Shown here: positions 214 to 32,315 of the stretch, piece after piece | Layout of the letters: every line of letters begins with the position of its first letter | Numbering within the stretch: the first letter of the stretch is position 1 | DNA from: a virus | Reading direction: 5' to 3' (one strand) | Virus record (IMG/VR): IMGVR_UViG_3300028025_001976 | Coordinates: 1-35,406 of that record | DNA length: 35,406 bases | Notes under the pieces: model-generated | Seen by the model: the letters and a program-made list of their open reading frames with translations, nothing else | Databases searched by the model: none | What the model was told of the DNA's origin: nothing | Made by a program: the position numbers and the translations under genes

Positions 214-520
214 ATGCGTTTAACCCTAGTTCCCGGCCTTTGGCCAAAGTTAATTCATCATTACTATACCAGGGTAGTGAAGGCCGCTTTACTTCTTTTG
301 GGGTCATATCCAGTTCATCTTCAAACCGGCCCTGGTTAATCCACGTGCTTGCATGGGGTATAAAATCCATTTCAGTACCCTTCAGTTTCCAATACGCAAC
401 GTGGTCCTCAATGGCTTCTACGGCCTGGGCTTGTTCGTCTTTAGTAAGGCGGTTAAACGCCCCCAGGGCGGCACGTTTAGCTACCTTCCTGGGGTAATGT
501 TTCCAAAATTGATCAAACAT
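146..520 (-). CDS. Putative replication-associated phage protein
   Basis: This 124-residue product begins MFDQFWKHYPRKVAKRAALG. The pattern FW-x2-YPRK-x2-K-x2-A-x2-AF followed by FIPHASTWINQGRFEDEL is a familiar C-terminal module of phage replication initiator or helicase-loader-type proteins; here it stands almost alone. The ATG at 520 overlaps the stop of the upstream gene (TAATG arrangement), which is why I prefer it to a more distal start. It is the third gene of the minus-strand operon behind the promoter at 1161-1189. Its exact role is an inference: no ATPase or primase motif is present, so it might be a loader or accessory factor. Confidence 0.65.
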   Translation of the reverse strand: MFDQFWKHYPRKVAKRAALGAFNRLTKDEQAQAVEAIEDHVAYWKLKGTEMDFIPHASTWINQGRFEDELDMTPKEVKRPSLPWYSNDELTLAKGRELGLNAYAGESMGQYRQRISQAIGKASV

Positions 521-909
521 TATGCGGCCTGTTTGTTTGCAACATAAACGTATGGTTTGTCCCATGCGCCTACGTTTAAATGAATGTAAAAGGCAGTATC
601 AAAATAATCCGTCATTGAATCGGAACGGTCATACCATTTATCGGCCGGGGCCGTTTTGATAATGTCAATAATCTTGGCAAACAATGGCTGGTGCTGGCCA
701 TAAAATTCAAGGTGGTATTCGTTGATTTGGGCGTAGCCCTTATGGTTCCAGGTTGCCAGGGTATCTAGCATACTAAAATCAATGTCGCTAGAAACGATAG
801 TTACATGGATTGAGTGGGTATCTTTACGTACCGCAAATTTGATGTTTGGAAACGCCGTTTTAAGGGCGTTGCGGATCAATGCGGCGTTTTCTTTGCTCAT
901 ATATGCCAT
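520..909 (-). CDS. LPD29-like protein
   Basis: The product is 129 residues from the ATG at 909, two bases after the stop of the preceding gene; an in-frame ATG at 927 would overlap that gene. The N-terminus (YMSKENAALIRNALKTAFP then IKFAVRKDTHSIHV) resembles large polyvalent-protein-associated domain 29, normally a short alpha/beta module embedded in giant phage or plasmid proteins. The rest (FDTAFYIHLNVGAWDKPYV) is also consistent. Its biochemical activity is unknown. As second gene of the early minus operon it is likely made early. Family assignment is from memory of the motif and is moderately sure. Confidence 0.7.
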   Translation of the reverse strand: MAYMSKENAALIRNALKTAFPNIKFAVRKDTHSIHVTIVSSDIDFSMLDTLATWNHKGYAQINEYHLEFYGQHQPLFAKIIDIIKTAPADKWYDRSDSMTDYFDTAFYIHLNVGAWDKPYVYVANKQAA

Positions 910-911
910 GA

Positions 912-1118
912 TTATTTGCCCGTCCATTTTTTAACAAACTTGGTCAATTTGGCATATTCGCCTTTAGGCAATTCAAACTCTATGTATTCGTTTTCGCCTT
1001 CATCTTCTAGGTCTAGTTCATGCTGGGCACGAAACACTAGGTGGGCAATGGTGCCATCAAGGTCATCCCGGTTAACGGTAATTAAATTTCTAAAATCTTT
1101 AAGTGCTTTTTCGTACAT
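912..1118 (-). CDS. Small acidic phage protein, first gene of minus operon
   Basis: A 68-residue product with a basic N-terminus (MYEKALKDFRNLITV) and an acidic middle (LDLEDEGENEYIEFELP). It is preceded by an AAGGAAAA Shine-Dalgarno and by the promoter/operator/hairpin leader at 1189-1139, so it is the first gene of the leftward transcript. No domain is recognised. Position suggests an early or host-takeover function, but nothing in the sequence proves that. Confidence 0.75.
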   Translation of the reverse strand: MYEKALKDFRNLITVNRDDLDGTIAHLVFRAQHELDLEDEGENEYIEFELPKGEYAKLTKFVKKWTGK

Positions 1119-1475: not shown

Positions 1476-1607
1476 AAAAAGAAAAAGGGCTTTAGGGGTA
1501 ATTCTGTGATTGAACGGCTTAGAAAATACCTCTTATCTTATTTCCTAAACCCACAAAACTACCTCTAAAGCCCTACGGTATCGAGTGTTCAATTCCTCAA
1601 TACGGTA
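1476..1607 (-). ncRNA. Candidate structured RNA ending in an intrinsic terminator
   Basis: On the minus strand three stems follow each other. Stem 1: 1607-1596 with 1585-1574 (12 positions, one C-C mismatch, one U-G). Stem 2: 1573-1560 with 1500-1487 (14 positions, one A-C mismatch), which starts directly where stem 1 ends. Stem 3 is nested in the loop of stem 2: 1548-1539 with 1528-1519 (10 positions, one G-U). A U-rich tract TTTTTCTTTTT (1486-1476) follows immediately. In stems 1 and 3 the imperfect pairs are wobbles only on the minus strand, which fixes the orientation. It lies just downstream of the HTH gene, so it may be its 3' UTR, a processed sRNA, or an unusually large terminator. Confidence 0.55.
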
Positions 1608-28359: not shown

Positions 28360-28527
28360 TTACTTCTTCTTAGCAGTCTTAGCGGAATCTTTAAACGCAT
28401 GGGCGGTTGGTGCGCCTTTGCTTCCAGGTTTACGCATTGTTTCTACCTTACCGCCAGCTTCCTTTTGTTTTTCAATCCGTTCTTGCTTCTTATGAATATT
28501 TGAATAAAGTCCGGGTTTAGTTGCCAT
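28360..28527 (-). CDS. Small basic phage protein
   Basis: A 55-residue product: MATKPGLYSNIHKKQERIEK, ETMRKPGSKGAPTAHAFKDS and a Lys-rich end. The KPGLY-NIH-K-RI...MRKPGSKGAPT-AF pattern is common among uncharacterised phage proteins. It overlaps the 3' end of the GroES-like gene by 11 bp. It probably belongs with the other Lys-rich small proteins upstream of terminase. Confidence 0.7.
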   Translation of the reverse strand: MATKPGLYSNIHKKQERIEKQKEAGGKVETMRKPGSKGAPTAHAFKDSAKTAKKK

Positions 28528-28852
28528 TTGGTTGTTCTCCGTCAGTTATAAAGCATACGTCTTGCCATGACATTATCAGATAACGTTCATTGTTAGTAAA
28601 GTATTCTTGATATTTAAGGTATTCGGCATTGGAATCTTTGCCCATCGTGCCAAATCTGACGTATTGACCTACCTCTACCGGCATTGCTTCCCGGCGGCCT
28701 TTTATCTTTTTGCCTGGGCCTACGGCTACTACCGTACCCATGTTATCCACTTCCTGATTATTGACCAGGATTACAGAACTTAAAATGCGTTTATCCGGGC
28801 GAACAACTATCTTGTCCCCCAGCGGTTTTAATATAAAATCTACATCAGCCAT
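28517..28852 (-). CDS. GroES-like co-chaperonin
   Basis: A 111-residue protein of the Cpn10 fold: LKPLGDKIVVRPDKRILSSV, GTVVAVGPGKKIKGRREAMP (the conserved G-V-AVGPG strand), VEVGQYVRFGTMGKD and LIMSWQDVCFITD. GroES-type phage proteins (such as T4 gp31) replace host GroES so that GroEL can fold coat protein. The mobile loop (SSVILVNNQEVDNM) is present. It lies just before the terminase/portal/coat genes in transcription order, which suits a coat-folding role, inferred. Confidence 0.82.
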   Translation of the reverse strand: MADVDFILKPLGDKIVVRPDKRILSSVILVNNQEVDNMGTVVAVGPGKKIKGRREAMPVEVGQYVRFGTMGKDSNAEYLKYQEYFTNNERYLIMSWQDVCFITDGEQPNGN

Positions 28853-29480: not shown

Positions 29481-32315
29481 TTATTCACGTGAATATTCAC
29501 GCACTATTTGTGGCTCAAAAGATATACCAACTCCGGTGTTTTGATTAAAGTAACCGTGGTACCCAGCTTCACGCATCATGCGTTCAATATCATTAGCTTT
29601 ACCGGCACTATCCAATATGCCGTTTTTATCACGATTAAAGTTATCTGCCATACGAATAATCCCGGCTGGATCAGCTTCAGTATCGTAAAAATGGTTTAAA
29701 TCTGCTTCGTATTGATTGCGGCCAAGCCCAGGTTCACGCATCCCAGGTTCATTGTAAAAATAGGTGCGTTCTTTTATTGATCCTGGAAGGGCCAATCTTT
29801 TAGCTTCTGCGCCCCGTATTCCATAACCATATTTGGCCGGATCAGTTGATTCCAAATCTGATAAATTGGAATAATGGTAGCCCTTGTGGCTTACCCCGTG
29901 TTCCGGAAATAAATTGCCTTTAATGTAATCAGGCATTTCGCCCTTGTAGCCAGCTTCCAGCATATCCGGTGGTAACGCTACGCCTTGTTGTTTAGCGTAC
30001 TGCCATTGGCCGCCTAAGTCACGCAAAATGGCATCGTATTGGTCAGGCGATTCGCCACGATGTACGGCTTGGTCCCTGGCTATCCTAGTTGACATCATTT
30101 TTTGTTCAAGATCAGCATTAATGCCGGAATAGTTAACAAAACTGTTTTGGCCCCTGGTTTCAGCGGCGGCCGCTACCCTGGCCAATGGGCTTAATGTTTG
30201 GGCATGGGCACCGTAAGCAGTTTCTTCACCTTTACGGCCAAACGTTGCCCCGGTTGTGCCGTGGCCAAAAAAATCATGGACCGCCCGGAATTTCTCATTA
30301 CTATTAAGGCCATAAAATTCATCCATTTCGTTTAGCAATGGGTGTACGTCACCGCCACGGTAGGTATATAAATGGTTGTTTACCAGGGCATCCCGTAGCA
30401 TTTCCCTGGAATCAAGGTAATTAGCATCGCCTTGGTGATACGACAATTTCATACCGCCTTTAACCATGTCATCAAATTGCTGGTCAATTTCTTTTCTTAA
30501 CTGGGCATATGATTTTTCTACCAAATCATCGTAATCTTTAATCCCATACTGCTTCATCATGTCAGGGTATTTAGCCATGTAATCATCATAAATGGCGTTT
30601 TTTAGCTGGGGTGAAACGCTATCTTTAGTCAACAAATCATAGGTTCTAGCTATGGAATGTTGTTTGCTTAGGGATGATTCAGGCATATCCTTAATGGCCC
30701 GTAGGTCAAAATCAGGATTATGCTTTTGCGCTAATGCTAAAGCTTTGTTGAACTCCGGGTTGCCTAAGTTGGCTTGGATGAATTCGGCCTGTTTCGCAAT
30801 GTCATCCGGATTGCTTCCTCGTGTGATTCTGCCGGCGTTCTCAATAAGGCCGCCTGGTAATCTTGTTTGTTCATTTCCGGCAATCCCAAACTTTTCAAGG
30901 TTTGATTGTGGTTCTCCCACCCTTCTAAAATTTCCTTCATCTTTAAACCCCTTTATGTCTAAGCTTTGTGATGGCTGGTTAATAGTTCCAGGTGTTTTTG
31001 TAGTAATAATTGCTTCATCAGGGTTTATGTCTAACCCGTATTGATTTGGCGCATTTTGGTATGGAAAGTTTTGACGCAATTCTTCAGGGCTTAAATTCAT
31101 CCTGTTTTGAACCATACGTGCTTCTGCTTCACCGCCATGCTTTAAATATGTTTCATAACCCAGTTTTTGTGGGTCCATTTCTATATATTTTTTTGATAAT
31201 TGATCACGCTGGGCCATTAAATTATCGTAAGTGCCTTTATCCCCAGCTTTTAATGCAACACTAGCTTCTTTATTTAAAGCTTCAATGTTTGTCATTATTC
31301 CTTGTTTTTGATTGGCAAAATATTGCATTAATTGCGCTGAATTGGCACCACGGTTAAATTCTTCTATACCTTGTATGCCGTGCGTTAACTCATGCAACAT
31401 AGTAGAACGGGCTTCATCAGGCGATAAATAAGCGGCTAACGTTATTTCATTTTCTTTTTGGTTATAACTGCCCTTAACGCCGCCATGACCGCTACCAACT
31501 TTAACTTTAATTTCACCTAATTCCGGATAAGCTTTGAGCAATTCAGGGTGTTCTAATACGTCTTTTACTTTTACTGGCGTTGTTTCTAAAACGTTGTATT
31601 CATCAAGCTTTTGGCTTCTAAAATCTTTATAAGCTTGAAATTCTTTTTCCGTCATTTTGTGAATTTCGGGTGGGCTACGGCCATACTTAGCTTCTTCAGC
31701 TTTGTTTAAATAAACTGACCAAGGCCCAATATCTTTAGCGGCCATATATTGTTCGCTAAACATATCGCCTTTTTGTTTCATTTTGGCAAATTGATCACTA
31801 AGTTCTGTACGCCATTGGTTATCAAGGCCCCGTACCATGCCAGTAGCTTCTAATATTTCTTCCGGCTTGGACCCTTTGGCTTCCATTTTTCCAGCCTGGA
31901 ACGCCATTTCAGGTTTCCATAGCTTTGATTCCGGCCCCATAATGCTTGCGCCAACTGGTACGTTTTTAGTAACTTTAGCGGCCCCGGCTAATGGCAATCC
32001 AACGTTCATAACTACATCAAAAGTAGGTTCAAAACGCCCCGTTTTCCATACATCCAGGCGATTGCCGCCGGTCCTTACTACTTCATTAGAATTTCTAAAT
32101 GGATAATCGCCTTGGCCCCAACGTTCTACTTCTTCCGGTGCTTTACCTAAAAGAAACTCACCCAGGGTTGTTCCCCCAATTAATGGAACGTAATCTTTAA
32201 CGTAATATTGATCAGCATATTTTTTGGCAATTTTTAGCATTTCCCCAATTCTTGCTACATTGGGGTTAACGGTTGGTATAGGGCCAACGGTGCCTAGTTC
32301 GTATTCTTCTGCCAT
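29481..32315 (-). CDS. Large polyvalent protein with zincin-like and ART-like modules
   Basis: A 944-residue multidomain protein. Residues about 265-330 contain STMLHELTHGIQGIEEF, an HExTH zincin motif in a context like polyvalent-protein domain LPD23. Residues about 665-725 contain FRAVHDFFGHGTTGATFGRK and LSPLARVAAAAETRGQNSFV, another conserved polyvalent block. From about 805 (HKGYHYSNLSDLESTDPAKY) to the end, the layout is like the ADP-ribosyltransferase-type module of polyvalent proteins. Such proteins are thought to be injected with phage or plasmid DNA to counter host defences. Helical linkers separate the modules. Enzymatic activities are inferred, not shown. Confidence 0.75.
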   Translation of the reverse strand: MAEEYELGTVGPIPTVNPNVARIGEMLKIAKKYADQYYVKDYVPLIGGTTLGEFLLGKAPEEVERWGQGDYPFRNSNEVVRTGGNRLDVWKTGRFEPTFDVVMNVGLPLAGAAKVTKNVPVGASIMGPESKLWKPEMAFQAGKMEAKGSKPEEILEATGMVRGLDNQWRTELSDQFAKMKQKGDMFSEQYMAAKDIGPWSVYLNKAEEAKYGRSPPEIHKMTEKEFQAYKDFRSQKLDEYNVLETTPVKVKDVLEHPELLKAYPELGEIKVKVGSGHGGVKGSYNQKENEITLAAYLSPDEARSTMLHELTHGIQGIEEFNRGANSAQLMQYFANQKQGIMTNIEALNKEASVALKAGDKGTYDNLMAQRDQLSKKYIEMDPQKLGYETYLKHGGEAEARMVQNRMNLSPEELRQNFPYQNAPNQYGLDINPDEAIITTKTPGTINQPSQSLDIKGFKDEGNFRRVGEPQSNLEKFGIAGNEQTRLPGGLIENAGRITRGSNPDDIAKQAEFIQANLGNPEFNKALALAQKHNPDFDLRAIKDMPESSLSKQHSIARTYDLLTKDSVSPQLKNAIYDDYMAKYPDMMKQYGIKDYDDLVEKSYAQLRKEIDQQFDDMVKGGMKLSYHQGDANYLDSREMLRDALVNNHLYTYRGGDVHPLLNEMDEFYGLNSNEKFRAVHDFFGHGTTGATFGRKGEETAYGAHAQTLSPLARVAAAAETRGQNSFVNYSGINADLEQKMMSTRIARDQAVHRGESPDQYDAILRDLGGQWQYAKQQGVALPPDMLEAGYKGEMPDYIKGNLFPEHGVSHKGYHYSNLSDLESTDPAKYGYGIRGAEAKRLALPGSIKERTYFYNEPGMREPGLGRNQYEADLNHFYDTEADPAGIIRMADNFNRDKNGILDSAGKANDIERMMREAGYHGYFNQNTGVGISFEPQIVREYSRE

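Follow-up and report, generated by a model that had tools for sequence, protein, structure and literature searches.

A pseudoknotted RNA family with a predicted promoter and terminator precedes a second structured RNA in freshwater P22-like phages

INTRODUCTION

Leaders of the lambda 6S / PR'-tR' type consist of a constitutive promoter, a short RNA and a terminator, and a longer unit is obtained by read-through. For lambda 6S, no conserved fold with a pseudoknot is known. In the pistol ribozyme, the loop of a 5' hairpin base-pairs where the next two stems meet; the strand it pairs with lies on the 5' side of this junction, and the ribozyme contains a conserved unpaired active site. Two other RNAs that bear on this study, Betaproteobacteria-1 and EGFOA, are said to have their source in Weinberg 2017, and our text searches for both names returned no relevant literature. 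The put RNA of phage HK022 comprises ~70 nt folded into two adjacent stem-loops right after an early promoter (PMC9378689).

In this study, we analysed virus record IMGVR_UViG_3300028025_001976 over its whole length of 35,406 nt (referred to as the window) and describe a structured RNA, RNA1, together with the RNA that follows it, RNA2.

RESULTS

Phage record and gene neighbourhood

The 35.4-kb record encodes a P22-type coat protein, a Terminase_3 protein and a P22-like portal protein. The closest cultured relative of the portal protein from a freshwater host belongs to Rhodoferax phage P26218 (43% identity), and the protein is closer to those of two uncultured Manatee Spring phages (68% identity). 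The RNA1 carriers are a common group of freshwater P22-like podoviruses. An exact-pattern scan for RNA1 and a protein scan for its upstream neighbour, an HTH protein, revealed no host or prophage relatives in the GTDB species genomes. The window also encodes a Cpn10 (GroES-like) chaperonin (28517-28852, minus strand; PF00166, E 9.6e-10), a protein with the large-polyvalent-protein domain LPD29 (520-927, minus strand) and a protein combining the large-polyvalent-protein domain LPD23 with a DUF6782 metallopeptidase domain (29481-32315, minus strand).

RNA1 is separated by 14 nt from the stop codon of the HTH gene (Table 1), whose product matches the PHROG 35 transcriptional repressor (E 1.3e-15) and PF15943 (E 3.3e-08). 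A palindrome, ACTAAAG-NNNN-CTTTAGT, can be seen in the sequence at the 1161-1216 promoter of the leftward genes. A similar motif lies at 1869-1906, in the stretch that separates the HTH gene from the genes running rightward. The site at 1161-1189 is predicted to be an early promoter, probably regulated by the HTH protein, and the palindromes or motifs at 1161-1216 and 1869-1906 are probably operators of this protein.

Table 1. Features of the RNA1-RNA2 region and of sister loci
Feature	Position	Strand	Basis or remark
HTH protein, 76 aa, phage repressor / Cro / YdaS type	1622-1852	minus	gene upstream of RNA1
Extended -10 promoter TGATATAGT, predicted, near HTH stop codon	1608-1616	minus	consensus match
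Hairpin A, 1602-1596 with 1585-1579, loop GA-AUUGAAC-A	1579-1602	minus	fold; conserved or compensatory inner pairs
Pseudoknot 5' strand AUUGAAC, hairpin A loop	1587-1593	minus	partner 1515-1509
Stem B, 1573-1552 with 1508-1487, 22 positions, 21 pairs, one A/C mismatch	1487-1573	minus	fold and relatives
Stem C, 13 bp, 1551-1539 with 1528-1516, apical loop 1538-1529	1516-1551	minus	enclosed by stem B
Pseudoknot 3' strand GUUCAAU, 7-nt bulge at stem B/C junction	1509-1515	minus	partner 1593-1587
U-tract TTTTTCTTTTT, predicted RNA1 3' end, intrinsic-terminator-like	1476-1486	minus	T run in relatives
RNA2, W type, structured, directly 3' of RNA1	1228-1466	minus	covariation; no Rfam match
Promoter-like site TTGACA-17-TAAATT, upstream of gene 1118-912	1161-1189	minus	consensus scan, 10/12
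RNA1-b examples	L280:574-707, L204:6512-6646, L274:5142-5273 and others

Fold and covariation of RNA1

The minus strand of region 1466-1612 folds with a minimum free energy (MFE) of -54.2 kcal/mol, compared with -29.7 +/- 3.8 for shuffled sequences (z -6.5, 0 of 200 shuffles being as good), and the plus strand folds less stably (-39.2, z -3.7). A preliminary description of the region had proposed a structured RNA on the minus strand, made of three stems and a U-tract. Our analysis agrees with it on the stems and their order, on the strand and on the U-tract, and the structured nature of the RNA is borne out both by the fold and by covariation in relatives. The dimensions needed correction: the second stem is present but extends over 22 positions rather than 14, and the third stem, which it encloses, contains 13 bp instead of 10. 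From the first stem, described with 12 positions, the inner part that forms hairpin A is kept, while the outer pairs do not form in 18-36 of the 59 relatives. The G-U pairs that had been given as the only imperfect pairs of two stems on this strand do exist, alongside true mismatches (C/C and A/C). Stem C stacks on stem B, and the bulge GUUCAAU, which separates C from the 3' half of B, is complementary at all seven bases to AUUGAAC of the A loop, forming a 7-bp pseudoknot that was absent from the preliminary description.

Relatives were collected by searching IMG/VR with the HTH protein (80 loci) and with an RNA pattern (62 contigs, many of them overlapping), and a covariance model constructed from 29 sequences found RNA1 in 51, then 36 loci. 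In 59 distinct aligned sequences, 94.3% of the RNA1 cells were paired, 33 of the 52 pairs showed compensatory changes, and covariation reached 0.354, against 0.153 after shuffling and at most 0.079 when the pairing was slid; many loci are closely related, so the cell counts overstate the number of independent events, which the slid controls and a count of changes on a tree (see below) offset in part. Stem B was paired in 98.4% of its cells, with compensatory changes in 14 of 21 pairs, and stem C in 95.8%, with 7 of 13. The feature is far beyond chance, and this covariation search in related phages, which the preliminary description had called for, was decisive for recognizing it as a structured RNA. 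Since G-U cells outnumber A-C cells by 281 to 69 in these relatives, RNA1 appears to be transcribed from the minus strand. Of 17 near-full-length phage records, 14 contain one RNA1 copy per genome. Matches of the RNA1 model on the reverse strand mirror the palindromic stem and were discarded.

We fitted the alignment to the nested pairs, with the pseudoknot left out of the model. Among the 59 distinct relatives, 99.8% of the 413 pseudoknot cells were nevertheless paired, five of the seven pairs carried compensatory changes, and the covariation of the pseudoknot taken alone was 0.559, compared with 0.148 for shuffled controls. Its 5' strand occurs in 12 versions of seven letters each, and the partner strand matches in 58 of the 59 sequences. 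A tree built without the pseudoknot columns requires at least 45 pair changes, a figure that is indicative given the short sequences behind the tree. This covariation is unusually strong for a pseudoknot, and the pairing might be intramolecular or might join two molecules. As an additional observation, a 10-base repeat, CCGTTCAATC, is found on the minus strand at 1517-1508, where it contains a pseudoknot strand, and again at 1472-1463, just upstream of RNA2. The idea that the copy 3' of RNA1 competes with the pseudoknot was set aside, the repeat being confined to close relatives of the window.

Comparative sequence shows that RNA1 folds into hairpin A at its 5' end and a long hairpin in two parts (first B, then C), with the 7-bp pseudoknot between A loop and bulge, and that the U-tract comes next. 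No ATG is seen in the RNA1 of the window, and its length in relatives (120-131 nt) varies by differences that are not multiples of three. With a predicted promoter and terminator of its own and no conserved reading frame, RNA1 may be a trans-acting phage sRNA. No Rfam 15 family matched RNA1 in the window at the gathering threshold, and a relaxed threshold added only sub-threshold microRNA hairpin models (E 0.019 and above). RNA1 represents a structured RNA family that is new and has no entry in Rfam 15.

Promoter and terminator of RNA1

A -10 element of the TGNTATANT type is located 6-7 nt upstream of the conserved AUUGAG of hairpin A, and the motif TRTGNTATA(G/T)T is conserved near the HTH stop codon in HTH-linked relatives. 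Of 55 distinct relatives, 50 carry a -10-like hexamer at constant spacing, with four unrelated contexts of the upstream gene among them. The RNA1 cassette comes after at least four unrelated genes: besides the HTH gene of the window, it also lies 3' of a second HTH family, and, with no repressor upstream, 3' of a PAPS-reductase-like gene in L107 and 3' of DUF5672 genes in L089, L104, L106 and L115. The predicted promoter has no clear -35 box. From the position of the -10, the start of RNA1 is predicted near 1602-1601, and the outer pairs of the formerly described 12-position stem (1607-1604) are not conserved because they are situated upstream of this start. We infer that RNA1 has an extended -10 promoter of its own, adjoining the stop codon of whichever gene precedes it. 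The earlier suggestion that the RNA is made from the repressor transcript is not supported, given this conserved -10 before the hairpin and the presence of RNA1 3' of non-repressor genes, and RNA1 probably does not arise as a by-product of that transcript.

At the other end, the 9-bp base of the long hairpin (GGGCUUUAG/CUAAAGCCC) is directly followed by UUUUU, in the manner of an intrinsic terminator, and in every one of the 59 aligned relatives, four or more of the last five bases of RNA1 are U. The size of the enclosed region, previously considered too big for a normal terminator, is therefore not a valid ground for excluding termination at this site. An ordinary intrinsic terminator has a short stem with a 3-8 nt loop and no further conserved structure, and RNA1, in which hairpin A and the pseudoknot are conserved besides the stem, does not correspond to this type. 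A consensus scan did not list the RNA1 terminator.

RNA2 and the shared unit

The RNA2 of the window belongs to what we call the W type. Its 27 tested pairs were 97.7% paired, 12 of them with compensatory changes, and covariation was 0.403, against 0.150 for shuffled controls and at most 0.059 for slid ones. The core pattern of this type, TGAACAYTAHCYTNGGNAGCATTAGTTC, occurs in 115 viral contigs. When folded alone, RNA2 showed no excess stability by MFE, and the structure proposed for it consequently rests on covariation. The window's RNA2 is not Betaproteobacteria-1, since region 1100-1700 gave no match to RF02932 at the threshold of 49.4 bits. This threshold is reached downstream of RNA1 in L046, L125, L106 and others, with one match of 89.9 bits.

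RNA2 follows RNA1 in 86 of the 87 RNA1 loci, that is, in all those long enough to tell, one contig ending too early. It is Betaproteobacteria-1 in 44 of the 87 loci by pattern, plus L125 by Rfam, the W type in 38 and a third type in 3. The pattern of the third type retrieved 25 contigs. RNA1 or a relative was found upstream in 82 of 84 W loci and in 21 of 22 third-type loci, counts that include four loci missed by the pattern and reassigned by eye. In L277, L193 and L234, a third- or W-type RNA2 comes after other hairpins that fit no RNA1 class and are possibly further variants. The third type bears a weak, sub-threshold likeness to EGFOA RNA (RF02955), L099 scoring 22.3 bits for a gathering threshold of 37.7; RF02956, considered as a companion family of EGFOA, turned out to be the entry DUF2693 and gave no supported match. 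A small conserved hairpin, TTAGG-N6-CCTAA, lies 3' of RNA2. For a duplex between RNA1 and RNA2, cognate pairs performed no better than non-cognate pairs.

The spacer between the U-tract of RNA1 and RNA2 measures 6-23 nt, which leaves no room for a separate RNA2 promoter. In 13 distinct loci without RNA1, Betaproteobacteria-1 starts directly after a -10. RNA1 therefore looks like a 5' module that is optional and sits between the promoter and RNA2, in a unit with the order promoter, RNA1, terminator, RNA2.

Sister classes and published genomes

A second class, RNA1-b (examples in Table 1), shares with RNA1 the promoter position, hairpin A, the long terminator hairpin and the loop-bulge pseudoknot, which has six or more perfect pairs in 37 of 39 sequences and is 99.1% paired; compensatory changes affect 25 of the 46 pairs of this class. 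Complementarity of at least 7 between its A-B linker and apical loop was observed in 66% of cognate and 19% of non-cognate pairs, which makes a second pseudoknot between these two parts likely. A third RNA1-like class, class c, is present in three loci (L266, L276 and L284) upstream of the third RNA2 type and displays the hairpin-loop/bulge complementarity GGUGGAA/UUCCACC. In Rfam, the class c locus L266 resembled only PhrS, below threshold (24.9 of 37 bits), and the class b, MW202674 and MW202753 loci had no Rfam 15 match.

The module is also present in two published phage genomes. In MW202753 (L174; cassette at 1454-1584), the RNA1 model matches with 67.5 bits and the pseudoknot is CUGAUAAC/GUUAUCAG. 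In MW202674 (L173; cassette at 1320-1473), the fold is the same and the pseudoknot is UUGGCGGA/UCCGCCAA; there was no match to the RNA1 model, and almost no sequence likeness despite the RNA1 architecture. Both genomes have the RNA cassette annotated as hypothetical proteins, which are probably spurious.

DISCUSSION

The structure of RNA1 and the transcription unit are well supported. We consider it likely that region 1602-1478 of the minus strand is a stand-alone phage noncoding RNA gene with its own promoter and terminator, which serves as an optional self-terminating module gating RNA2. RNA1 would be transcribed from its extended -10, and most transcripts would stop at the U-tract, as its conserved sequence suggests. 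Read-through past the terminator would supply RNA2, because no promoter fits in the spacer and because RNA2 adjoins the promoter when RNA1 is missing. RNA1 would set the level of RNA2 and would also accumulate as a stable RNA of ~120 nt. Its most likely role would be that of an early RNA that lacks repressor operators and targets an RNA or a protein of the host or the phage, and its terminator might work as a leaky or conditional gate for RNA2. Alternatively, RNA2 may be made from a promoter overlapping the terminator stem of RNA1. A broader proposal, to which we give somewhat less than an even chance, is that RNA1 and RNA2 each make up one half of a phage RNA system that has not yet been described. 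In it, a 5' RNA with a pseudoknot, existing in several sequence classes with one kept architecture, would conditionally gate an RNA2 drawn from at least three interchangeable families, and both would act early on the host machinery.

Other readings of the region have to be weighed against a stand-alone gene. A cis-acting leader, either an RNA-based antiterminator or a ligand-responsive attenuator (HK022 put RNA-like, or a riboswitch with its expression platform), would let the polymerase proceed past the leader's own terminator and later ones into RNA2 and the early genes. We regard this as possible but rather unlikely. RNA1 begins at the predicted transcription start and stops at a terminator before RNA2, it is optional while RNA2 stays, and put RNAs, with ~70 nt and two stem-loops, are likewise situated downstream of early promoters (PMC9378689). 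However, the put RNA as described in that work has no pseudoknot and does not end in a terminator. Moreover, no alternative antiterminator pairing is visible in RNA1, the 22 positions of the terminator stem pair almost perfectly in every relative, and there is a further predicted promoter between RNA2 and the genes. We are more sceptical still of an intermolecular loop-bulge pairing, by which RNA1 would form dimers or rings like the phi29 packaging RNA or other oligomeric phage RNAs. The perfect complementarity of loop and bulge within each phage and its diversification between phages, which would limit cross-pairing, are compatible with such an arrangement, but an intramolecular pseudoknot is a simpler account of the covariation.

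That RNA1 is just the terminator of the repressor gene, or an sRNA released by cleavage from the 3' UTR of the repressor mRNA, seems very improbable. The element does lie 14 nt past the HTH stop codon and end in a U-tract, where a repressor mRNA reading through would end too; yet RNA1 occurs after unrelated genes, non-repressors included, with the -10 at constant distance, many HTH-1 relatives have RNA2 in its place, and a plain terminator would need neither hairpin A nor a covarying pseudoknot. The repressor-gene terminator reading is contradicted by both context and covariation. Least credible of all, to a degree that we hardly take it into account, is a DNA-level element, such as a replication, recombination or packaging site whose inverted repeats mimic RNA stems: the asymmetry between G-U and A-C cells would not be expected from DNA cruciforms, which lack a strand bias, and promoter and U-tract are kept in fixed register, even though the plus strand also folds better than shuffled sequences and replication and recombination genes are nearby.

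RNA1 ties two or three orphan structured RNAs, Betaproteobacteria-1 included, into one ordered phage transcription unit, and this defined order makes the function of these orphan RNAs testable. If the two-RNA system is true, the orphan Betaproteobacteria-1 RNA gains a biological setting. RNA1 classes and RNA2 types are swapped from one phage to another, which suggests that this RNA system is modular and diversifies rapidly.

Among known RNAs, the nearest in location is Betaproteobacteria-1 (RF02932, an sRNA), which is the RNA2 adjoining RNA1 in about half of the loci. It shares with RNA1 the phage group and the kind of promoter that stands in front. RNA1 does not match it in sequence or in structure, and the RNA2 of the window is of another type. 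The sub-threshold likeness to EGFOA RNA concerns the third RNA2 type and not RNA1. ToxI, the antitoxin RNA of type III toxin-antitoxin systems, is small, pseudoknotted and phage-related, as is RNA1. However, ToxI is a repeat array beside a toxin gene, whereas RNA1 is single, with no tandem array nearby, and has variable neighbours (HTH, DUF5672 or PAPS-reductase genes) that are not ToxN-like, and a ToxIN type III antitoxin was rejected on these grounds. As in the pistol ribozyme, a 5' hairpin loop of RNA1 pairs at a junction, but its partner is a bulge on the 3' side, and RNA1 shows no unpaired core that is conserved. RNA1 resembles the HK022 put RNA in its two adjacent hairpins after a predicted promoter, and differs from it by its length of about 120 nt, its covarying pseudoknot and its own terminator, while put acts on the polymerase that made it. 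Finally, the layout of the RNA1 unit is like that of lambda 6S, with the difference that the predicted product of read-through is another structured RNA.
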